Source: a virus. Taken from it: a stretch of DNA of 36,649 nucleotides. The stretch spans positions 1 through 36,649 of IMG/VR virus record IMGVR_UViG_3300020469_000115; one strand, given 5' to 3'. How positions within the stretch are numbered: position 1 is the stretch's first letter; each line of letters starts with the position of its first letter. The translations under genes and the position numbers were made by a program. This document shows positions 24,441 through 28,539 of the stretch, piece after piece. The notes beneath the pieces are model-generated. The model was not told the origin of the DNA. It ran no database searches and saw nothing but the letters and a program-made list of their open reading frames with translations.

Positions 24441-24515
24441 GGTCTGTTGGTATAATGGCTATTACACCTCTCTGTCCAAGAGGAAATAGGAGTTCAATTC
24501 TCCTACAGACCGCCA
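24441..24515 (+). tRNA. tRNA-Asp(GTC), CCA encoded
   Basis: The full cloverleaf is present: a 7-bp acceptor stem (GGTCTGT with ACAGACC), a D arm GTA..TAC, a perfect 5-bp anticodon stem (CCTCT with AGAGG) with loop CTGTCCA giving anticodon GTC, a 4-base variable loop, and a 5-bp T stem (AGGAG with CTCCT) with loop TTCAATT. Discriminator G is at 24512 and CCA at 24513-24515. It is packed between two genes: five bases after one stop, and directly followed by the next ribosome site. It must therefore be cut out of the operon mRNA. Confidence 0.95.
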
Positions 24516-25347: not shown

Positions 25348-25542
25348 ATGGCAGATAAGAAGAAATACAAACATCAAGAGAATTATGAGCAAAAAATGAT
25401 TAAACAAGGTTTTATTAAAATGAAGCTCTGGATACCAGACAGCATGAGAAATAGAGCTAAAGCTTACGCTCAGAGCCTCAGACAGCTTTATTTAGGCGAT
25501 AAAACAGAGGATAATAAGGAAAGTACCAAGAAAGATAAATAA
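25348..25542 (+). CDS. 64-residue basic protein, possibly ribbon-helix-helix
   Basis: A very Lys-rich protein starting MADKKKYKHQENYEQKMIKQ. The segment IKMKLWIPDSMRNRAKAYAQ looks like the strand-helix of a ribbon-helix-helix DNA-binding protein, so it may repress or activate phage promoters; this is inference from 25 residues. It is the last gene of the rightward operon. The candidate large RNA on the other strand ends where this gene stops. Confidence 0.5.
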   Translation: MADKKKYKHQENYEQKMIKQGFIKMKLWIPDSMRNRAKAYAQSLRQLYLGDKTEDNKESTKKDK

Positions 25543-26545
25543 AAGGTTTAAAGGCAACAAATTAATAGAATTGGCGTAGAGGAAGCGTATCATTCTCCTC
25601 CCAAAAATAAAATGCTTTCTCTACGCACTCAAAATAAATGGTCCAGAAAAGCAAATTAATAGCTCCCAAGCCTATATCTATCAAAAAGAAGACCTCACAG
25701 TCTAGGAGCAAAAGAATATCCAGCAGCACAATGAATAAGGACCAAAGGCGTATGCGTGGTAAGAATTTAAGAAGGTCTGGGAGATAAAGTTCCCTTAAAG
25801 GATTAAAGTTTTGCAGAGCTTTTACTTAGAGCGACTAAGCTTAAAACTCCTAGATTTTTATAAACCTTCTCGTCAGAATTGTGCATAAAATATAGATGAA
25901 ACCACTCTCTTATTCGCCTAGAGTCTATACTGGACAAGCCAACATAAATTTACATCAAGGTATCTAACCTCAATTCCCTCTTAACCTGCAACTCATAGTC
26001 AGCGATACAGCCGTTATATTCTTTTTGGTGGTCCAAAAATAAAGCGCCTCTAGGAAAAGTCGTTGGGTACTTAAACCTCGCTTTTATATCCGACTGGTCT
26101 ACACCTTGTTTAACAATTATCAGACTATGGCAGTTTTTATTGAGTCCGAGATAGACAATTAAGTTAATATCTCCAACAATAAGGTTTATAGCTTTCCTCG
26201 CAGTGAGACCTCAAATCCCACGCTTACACAGTTCCTCTTAATCCAAAGCTCCTTACTTTGGGAGGTGTTTATCGCAAAACCATGCCTAGTTAATCCCTCT
26301 ACATTTGCTCTTTGGTCATTTTCGCCTCAAGCCTATTTTGGGAAATGCTTTTTAACGCATTTAATCTAAAGTTGACAGTTAGGTTAAGATTTCTTGTATG
26401 TTATGTCATTTGCACAACTAATTTAAAAAATCGTGTAAAACTTTAATCTTTTAAAGAAACTTATCGTGAGCTTTTTTTGCTTTTAATCTCCTCAAGAAGT
26501 TTGGTTATCTTTAAGTTTTTTATCGTTTAACCAACAAGCCGATAT
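25541..26545 (-). ncRNA. Candidate large structured non-coding RNA, two domains
   Basis: There is no credible ORF on either strand. Two counted blocks are 38% (25981-26040) and 45% (26041-26100) G+C, against 27% for adjacent coding DNA (25321-25380). Domain 1 is closed by 26381-26389 with 25979-25987 plus 26369-26374 with 25989-25994. It contains hairpins at 26203-26221, 26234-26265, 26120-26149 and 26022-26039. A hairpin at 25954-25974 lies in the linker. Domain 2 is closed by 25861-25870 with 25541-25550. It contains 25847-25854 with 25701-25708 and a 12-13-bp stem 25614-25626 with 25574-25586. G-U pairs in the first, third and linker hairpins exist only on the minus strand, and a promoter lies at 26552-26579. 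Size and phage setting recall GOLLD and ROOL RNAs; the family is unproven. Confidence 0.6.
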
Positions 26546-26551
26546 ATATAC

Positions 26552-26579
26552 ATAATATAGGACCACTATAATATTGCAA
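26552..26579 (-). promoter_or_regulatory. Promoter of the candidate large RNA
   Basis: On the minus strand, TTGCAA (26574-26579) and TATTAT (26552-26557) have a 16-base spacer, the same -35 and spacing as the integrase promoter. There is no gene for 500 bases downstream on this strand, so its transcript would be the structured region. The expected start is near 26545. Confidence 0.6.
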
Positions 26580-26610
26580 CCTTTTTCTTAATCTTTCTTA
26601 GACTTTGTTA

Positions 26611-26634
26611 TTATAAAAAAGTTTTTTCTTATAA
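26611..26634. terminator. AT-only palindrome, possible bidirectional terminator
   Basis: TTATAA arms at 26611-26616 and 26629-26634 enclose A-tract/T-tract arms. On the minus strand it follows the stop of the HTH gene (26640) and carries a U-run in its right arm. It would separate that gene from the RNA promoter at 26552-26579. The lack of G+C makes it a weak call. Confidence 0.35.
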
Positions 26635-26639
26635 GACCC

Positions 26640-27598: not shown

Positions 27599-28450
27599 TT
27601 AATCATGACAAAAACAATCAACGCTTTCATCATCTGCAAATAACTCAAATTGTTTATCTTGCTCGTTTTTAATTTCAATCATTTGGTCATAGGAAATATC
27701 ATACTTAAAAGTTTTGCCAGTGCGCTTTTCTTGCTCAACCCACCAGTGCGCTAAATCTTCTCTTTGTTTTAACATCTGCAAAAGTTGACCTTTGCCTTTT
27801 AAAAAACACATATCACAATTACCAAAAAGCGTGTGCTTATCACTTGCAATAAGGTTTAAGTCAAAATTATTTTTTTTCCAAAAATCTTTTATATCTTGTT
27901 GTATTACTTTTGCGTCAAATAAAGGAGTAAAATAATCCGCCTTACCGTTTCTGTCTTTTATTTTGTGGACTCGTCTTGGCTCGTCTGCTCTTAATCCGAT
28001 AACTTGGTCTATATCTTTAAAACCTTTTTGCCTTTCATACCAAATTATTGCTCTTTGTTTTAAAAGAAAAGTACAAAATCTATTTGTTGAGTTTGGCAGT
28101 TTTCCATAATAATCAATTAATTTTTCAAAAGGCTCGCCATTTCTGCTTGCTGTTTCGTAATCTACAAACTTATATTTAAAAATCCAACCGTCAGTATTTT
28201 CTCCTTCAGCAGCTTTATCTACATGAGTTAATTCTACCCAATCAATTTTGCAATCCCATTTGTCTGAACAATCTCTTATAAAATCTAAAGTTTGTGGCAT
28301 TTCTTTACCAGTGTTTGCAAAAACTACATAAATGTCTTCTGGTAAAGTTCCGCCATACGCATCAATAATTTTTTTTAACATAAACCCAGAAGTTCTTCCG
28401 CCACTAAAACTTATTAATGCTGGTCCTTGTATTTTGTATGGATTATTCAT
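27599..28450 (-). CDS. PAPS-reductase-like (PP-loop) protein
   Basis: A 283-residue protein from the ATG at 28448-28450; a TTG eight codons upstream also reads in frame. The PP-loop is SFSGGRTSGFML (residues 14-25), used to bind an adenylated substrate. Cys residues (NRFCTFLLKQRA, GNCDMCFLKGKG and the final CFCHD) could hold an iron-sulphur cluster. The family (PAPS/APS reductase, DndC-like) moves sulphur or activates by adenylation. In phage early regions such genes are common, but the substrate is unknown. No sulphate-pathway genes are nearby, so nucleotide or tRNA/DNA modification is a better guess than sulphate assimilation. Confidence 0.75.
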   Translation of the reverse strand: MNNPYKIQGPALISFSGGRTSGFMLKKIIDAYGGTLPEDIYVVFANTGKEMPQTLDFIRDCSDKWDCKIDWVELTHVDKAAEGENTDGWIFKYKFVDYETASRNGEPFEKLIDYYGKLPNSTNRFCTFLLKQRAIIWYERQKGFKDIDQVIGLRADEPRRVHKIKDRNGKADYFTPLFDAKVIQQDIKDFWKKNNFDLNLIASDKHTLFGNCDMCFLKGKGQLLQMLKQREDLAHWWVEQEKRTGKTFKYDISYDQMIEIKNEQDKQFELFADDESVDCFCHD

Positions 28451-28455
28451 AATAA

Positions 28456-28539
28456 TTAAAAAAACATCTGCCAATATTTATACATAAAAACAATAATAAA
28501 CGAAAAAATTAAAACAATTATTGCTTTTGGCTCTTGCAT
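28456..28539 (-). CDS. 27-residue single-pass membrane peptide
   Basis: The ATG at 28537-28539 and TAA at 28456-28458 fill the gap between two genes almost exactly. The peptide MQEPKAIIVLIFSFIIVFMY is hydrophobic from residue 6 to 20, ending KYWQMFF. There is no good ribosome site, but it starts one base after the previous stop, so it may be coupled. It is possible but unproven. Confidence 0.4.
   Translation of the reverse strand: MQEPKAIIVLIFSFIIVFMYKYWQMFF

Follow-up and report, generated by a model that had tools for sequence, protein, structure and literature searches.

Introduction

Does a block without recognizable genes in the genome of a tailed phage encode a large structured RNA, and if so, on which strand and over what extent? 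The window, i.e. the whole stretch of DNA analysed here, is an IMG/VR record of 36,649 bases. Its source is a marine tailed phage with genes for a terminase, a portal, a major head protein, a scaffold, tail fibres and a primase/helicase, and it also encodes a Sak4-like annealing protein, a PAPS-reductase-like protein and an integrase. An earlier note had proposed that positions 25543-26639 lack a credible gene and contain a two-domain structured non-coding RNA, with the minus strand favoured, a promoter at the right edge and a likeness to GOLLD and ROOL, which assemble into RNA-only multimers. Our analysis suggests that the block very probably does encode a large structured non-coding RNA and that this RNA belongs to a modular phage family without a match in Rfam.

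Results

Open stretches of the block do not behave as genes

A codon model trained on the long ORFs of related phages gives good scores to the neighbouring small genes and to most other genes of the phage, but not to the open stretches of the block, and none of these stretches has a match in PHROGs, Pfam or the INPHARED phages. The longest open frame of the block is interrupted in the homologue L096, which is described below. Of the 13 indels that separate the window from L096, 10 are not multiples of three and, therefore, no reading frame has survived; substitutions in ORF B fall 27/14/20 on codon positions 1/2/3, i.e. without a third-position bias. Together, codon statistics, protein searches and the broken frame bear out the proposal that the block has no credible gene, and at the level of sequence comparison we regard its non-coding nature as established. 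Protein readings of the minus-strand stretches (MTKEQM..., ORF B and ORF C) were rejected on the basis of the codon model, the family searches and the L096 indels. The plus-strand ORF at 25638-25787 (49 aa) was also set aside; it has no ribosome-binding site by eye, no match and a poor codon score.

A decayed or frameshifted protein gene could have left behind the minus-strand stretch 26210-25953, in which 86 codons are open without a start codon and which looks protein-like by eye. Given that the codon model ranks this stretch below all genes tested, that it has no protein match, that the L096 indels break the frames and that the substitutions are not at third positions, we attach practically no credence to this explanation.

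The G+C excess of the block over adjacent genes, which had been taken as a further sign of an RNA, is small (0.357 for the RNA versus 0.343 for the genome). In 300-nt folding windows on both strands the energy does not go beyond chance, the sole exception being a plus-strand window at the block's left edge (25350-25649, z -2.2). A hairpin of 13-15 bp at 25574-25626, just past the end of the small-gene operon at 25542, is slightly more compatible with the plus strand.

Homologues delimit an RNA unit with an invariant leader

Contig L004 from the same collection has an identical block and differs from the window by one base in 7,294; it is, therefore, effectively the same virus. A scan with the consensus of two repeat arms identified L096, which is from another phage and is 81.3% identical to the window across an alignment of 856 columns, or 83.5% if gapped positions are left out. 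Between the two phages, shared genes have a nucleotide identity of 70-73%, which is below the 83.5% of the RNA. Relatives of the L096 exonuclease gene led to the further members L103, L102, L107, L111 and L132, among which L103, L102 and L107 are nearly identical to one another and L107 ends early. The known members fall into five distinct sequence types, and L096 alone has a body that resembles that of the window along its length. Pattern matches at L097-L100, for which BLAST shows no wider similarity, and a 13-residue match at L086 were deemed to be due to chance. L096 also has a gene for a PAPS-reductase-like protein near the RNA; that of the window lies at 27599-28474.

The homology between the window and L096 runs from about 26546 to 25776; it begins where the transcript is expected to start and ends at a short tail, and this comparison delimits an RNA unit of roughly 770 nt on the minus strand, from about 26543 to 25776 (Table 1). 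The extent proposed earlier was wrong: because homology ends at about 25776, most of the proposed second domain is excluded from the RNA. The proposed closure of 25861-25870 with 25541-25550 makes use of sequence past this end and is unsupported as a part of the RNA. The same holds for the proposed stem of 25574-25586 with 25614-25626, which is a real hairpin in the window, but a separate one beyond the conserved unit. In place of two domains, the unit consists of a leader module and a body closed by a long helix, P1.

Table 1. Features of the RNA unit and its surroundings in the window
Feature	Position	Strand	Basis or remark
Sigma70-like promoter	26552..26579	minus	TTGCAA (26579-26574), 16 nt, TATTAT (26557-26552)
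5' leader module	26463..26543	minus	Alignment of homologues and leader model R1
P1 closing helix, 5' arm	26434..26462	minus	Inverted repeat, covariation
Body, ~620 nt	25816..26433	minus	Interior fold partly resolved; consensus fold of two sequences
Long-range internal pairing	26369-26389 with 25974-25994	minus	13/15 pairs kept in L096
3' hairpin, TCGC loop conserved	25815..25850	minus	Covaries among window, L096 and L111
P1 closing helix, 3' arm	25787..25815	minus	Inverted repeat, covariation
Short 3' tail	25776..25786	minus	TTATCTCCC in window; L096 homology stops here
Possible weak terminator	25684..25705	minus	5-bp hairpin followed by TCTTTTT
64-aa gene, relative of phrog_11804	25348-25542	plus	Junction-conserved in several TerL-related phages
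tRNA-Asp (GTC)	24441-24515	plus	1.3 kb from RNA

The leader module is predicted to fold into an ATCG/CGAT closing stem, a long-loop hairpin (TTGGTTA/TAACCAA) and two small hairpins. Across all homologues, the first 50 nt of the module (26543-26494) are completely identical, and a covariance model of the leader (R1) gives significant scores in the window and the RNA-bearing contigs only. Under this constant leader the bodies are replaced: they measure ~620 nt in the window and L096, ~200 nt in L103 and ~250 nt in L132, and each ends with a complementary 3' arm and so has a P1 of its own. L111 (2019-2990) has a single leader, after which two P1-closed bodies stand in tandem, a short one and directly thereafter a long one; the last 170 nt of the long body resemble L096, and the short body does not. 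The tail in L096 and L103 reads AACTAATTCTCCCC. A 39-nt motif, GCCAAATGTT.TATAACATGAGTAGCTGAAG, is 92% identical between L111 (2719-2757) and L132 (3244-3282), the bodies of which are otherwise different.

The closing helix and a 3' hairpin covary

The block had been described as rich in nested complementary segments. Complementarity does exceed chance; the decisive pair, the two P1 arms, was absent from that description. As an inverted repeat P1 has an ungapped score of 43, which none of 200 shuffles reached (mean 25.7, maximum 37) and which is above the best repeat in 13 other stretches sampled from the genome. The P1-bounded segment of 676 nt, the ends of which were picked after the repeat had been seen, folds better on the minus strand than 100 of 100 shuffles (z -2.96), and the folding excess in the window is present only if both arms are included.

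P1 is 25-29 bp long, its 5' arm starts with AGTTTCTTT in most members, and that of the window includes two A-C mismatches. In an alignment of five P1 helices, standard pairs make up 98.4% of the cells, and both sides have changed in 10 of the 25 pairs; neither value was reached in any of 500 shuffles, and pairing falls to 57-63% if the partner is slid by one column. The 5' arms pair best overall with their own 3' arms, in that the true sum is reached by only two of 720 arrangements, the true one and a second that is a tie because the arms of the window and L096 are nearly alike. In the 3' hairpin, all 14 pairs are kept in the window, L096 and L111 with four compensatory changes, a result reached by 2 of 500 shuffles; as three sequences are compared, the shuffle counts carry little weight, but the pattern itself is direct. 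Compensatory base changes are found in P1 as well as in the 3' hairpin, as judged by shuffle tests, and no reading frame is kept.

The interior of the body is moderately supported

A consensus fold of the window and L096 has an energy of -140.4 kcal/mol, and column shuffles give -97.5 +/- 6.7; double changes number 12, where 6.1 +/- 2.0 were expected. If the leader and P1 are left out, the energy is -99.6 versus -74.8 +/- 6.5 and the double changes are 11 versus 5.3 +/- 2.2. The null in these comparisons is a mononucleotide column shuffle of two sequences, in which dinucleotides are not kept. Folded singly, L103 (z -5.5), the second body of L111 (z -6.0) and L096 (z -3.5) are more stable than expected; L132 has a weaker P1 and no excess stability. 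Without P1, single bodies fold no better than shuffles and, therefore, P1 accounts for much of the excess stability. Because the null ignores dinucleotides and single bodies equal shuffles, we consider the predicted interior fold to be moderately supported.

Several helices proposed for this region can be followed into L096. Most of the long-range pairing listed in Table 1, which had been proposed as a domain closure, is kept, as are 6 of 7 pairs of the hairpin at 26120-26149 and 6 of 8 pairs of that at 25954-25974; the hairpin at 26203-26221 keeps 2 of 8 pairs and is not supported.

Promoter and terminator layout points to independent transcription

The promoter-like site expected at the right edge is present. 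All homologues have the same layout upstream, with TTGTA(A/T) and TTAAAT at a matching distance from the leader; a lone match of this kind is not above chance, and the evidence is the conserved position. Downstream of the 3' arm, L096, L103 and L111 have AACTAAT(T/A)CTCC, directly followed by an intrinsic terminator. Of the four homologues with a complete 3' end, three have such a terminator; in L132 a clear terminator was not found. In the window, a strong terminator was not found after the tail, a possible weak one near 25690 being the only candidate. G exceeds C and A exceeds T on the minus strand of every member. The strand, previously favoured as minus, is settled as such by the promoter layout, the terminators in relatives and these base skews. 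From the promoter and terminator layout we infer an independently transcribed RNA, which would also be stable.

Long inverted repeats around a gene-free interior, a patchy presence and a slot of exchangeable cargo would also be expected of a MITE-like mobile element or a recombination cassette acting at the DNA level, in which an enzyme recognizes the repeat ends and the interior is passive. In such an element, the invariant 50-nt leader would not be expected to lie outside the repeat, as it does, nor would the inner P1 sequence vary among members and remain complementary. A hairpin within the body covaries, the promoter layout is conserved, terminators follow the RNA in three members, and no target-site duplication is seen by eye. 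We consider this explanation very unlikely.

In relatives of the phage the RNA occupies an accessory slot

The distribution of the RNA is patchy. No homologue was found in 42 records of TerL-related phages, and where the equivalent junction was examined, it contains a short gap or small genes instead; most exonuclease-bearing phages also are without the RNA. Cultured phages, plasmids and bacterial and archaeal genomes gave no homologue either, in genome scans that used exact patterns and that diverged copies would, therefore, escape. In the L096 group the RNA sits between the exonuclease and lysozyme genes. Sister phages have small unassigned genes, a larger gene of ~300 codons or a likely homing endonuclease in the same slot, and several of these occupants have their own promoter-like and terminator-like sequences. 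The likely homing endonuclease is a 245-aa ORF (L109:3344-4081) that is GIY-YIG-like by eye and has a weak I-HmuI NUMOD-like match under the Pfam cut-off. In the window, the RNA is at a different junction, past a rep-like gene, and again at a convergent operon end. Patchiness and change of place fit an RNA that is accessory cargo.

The RNA lies at a convergent operon end in the window as well as in L096 and runs in the direction of the upstream gene, which could alternatively indicate an element that acts only in cis: the rep/exonuclease operon may have a long 3' untranslated end, or the block may serve in replication. We find this unlikely: the upstream gene differs between the two (rep-like in the window, exonuclease in L096), the RNA has its own promoter-like site, and it is absent from the 42 TerL-related records and from most exonuclease-bearing phages.

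Discussion

The homologues, the broken frames, the covariation, the shared promoter layout and the three terminators uphold the proposal of a structured non-coding RNA on the minus strand. That it represents a new family appears to be borne out, as no Rfam family matches at its gathering score. For the window block and L096, Rfam searches up to E 10 returned only hits far below gathering scores and no match to GOLLD or ROOL, so that the suggested likeness to these RNAs is by analogy only. For L111, the best hit is to a pseudoknot family of plant viruses; it lies on the opposite strand and stays below the gathering score. In a non-exhaustive search of titles and abstracts on large, structured or phage-encoded RNAs we found no obvious description of this RNA.

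GOLLD is a large structured RNA of phages and prophages that exceeds 800 nt in many members, has one conserved and one variable region and often is close to tRNA genes (PMC12286853). The RNA described here is likewise a large structured phage RNA; its size, its setting in a phage, the lack of a protein and, in the window, the tRNA gene 1.3 kb away could suggest a highly diverged GOLLD, ROOL or OLE RNA. This we judge highly improbable. Up to E 10, the covariance models of these RNAs match neither the window block nor L096, and the tRNA gene that contributed to the proposed likeness is confined to the window, with none near any homologue. Moreover, the order of the parts is reversed: in GOLLD the constant region is 3' and the variable region 5' (PMC12286853), whereas here the leader is 5' and invariant and is followed by a variable P1-closed body that, unlike in GOLLD, can be swapped or doubled. 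ROOL (RF03087) is similar in being a large phage/prophage RNA of unassigned function and differs from the present family, with its bodies of about 200 to 650 nt, in that its covariance model has no match here; a search without a positive control found no ROOL in the ten records behind the loci. ROOL is located near tRNA islands; here, a single tRNA-Asp gene is present in the window and none is close to the homologues. OLE is a large ornate RNA as well, again without a covariance-model match here.

Two further systems share aspects of this layout. Retron non-coding RNAs have long complementary arms that close their ends around a variable interior, as P1 does here. The invariant leader of the phage RNA lies outside the arms, and a reverse transcriptase (PF00078) was not found in the window's own genome record. 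Phage morons are accessory cassettes that sit in exchangeable slots, bring a promoter and a terminator of their own and usually code for protein. The unit described here has the same slot-type layout with a product that would be an RNA, and we infer that it is an independently transcribed accessory ('moron') RNA.

In total, the comparisons suggest a plan of three parts: (i) an invariant leader of 50 nt inside a folded 5' module of ~80 nt, (ii) one or two bodies, variable in sequence and size, each of which would be closed by a long P1, and (iii) in three of four 3'-complete homologues, a short tail with an intrinsic terminator. We can only guess at how such an RNA may act. The leader might be engaged by one fixed partner and the exchangeable body might bear a specific activity, e.g. 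as a decoy, a scaffold or an inhibitor in host takeover, counter-defence or the exclusion of rival phages. As a tentative model, which we put forward as possible rather than probable, the fixed leader and its constant partner would deliver exchangeable P1-insulated bodies, sometimes in tandem, as effectors against varying targets in the host or in rival phages.

Few large structured phage RNAs are known and their functions are open. The family described here would add to them an unusual plan in which an accessory slot holds a hyperconserved leader joined to P1-closed bodies that can be swapped. The sequences and covarying helices suffice as the start of a family model, and two questions become testable, i.e. 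which partner binds the leader and whether the bodies are interchangeable effectors.
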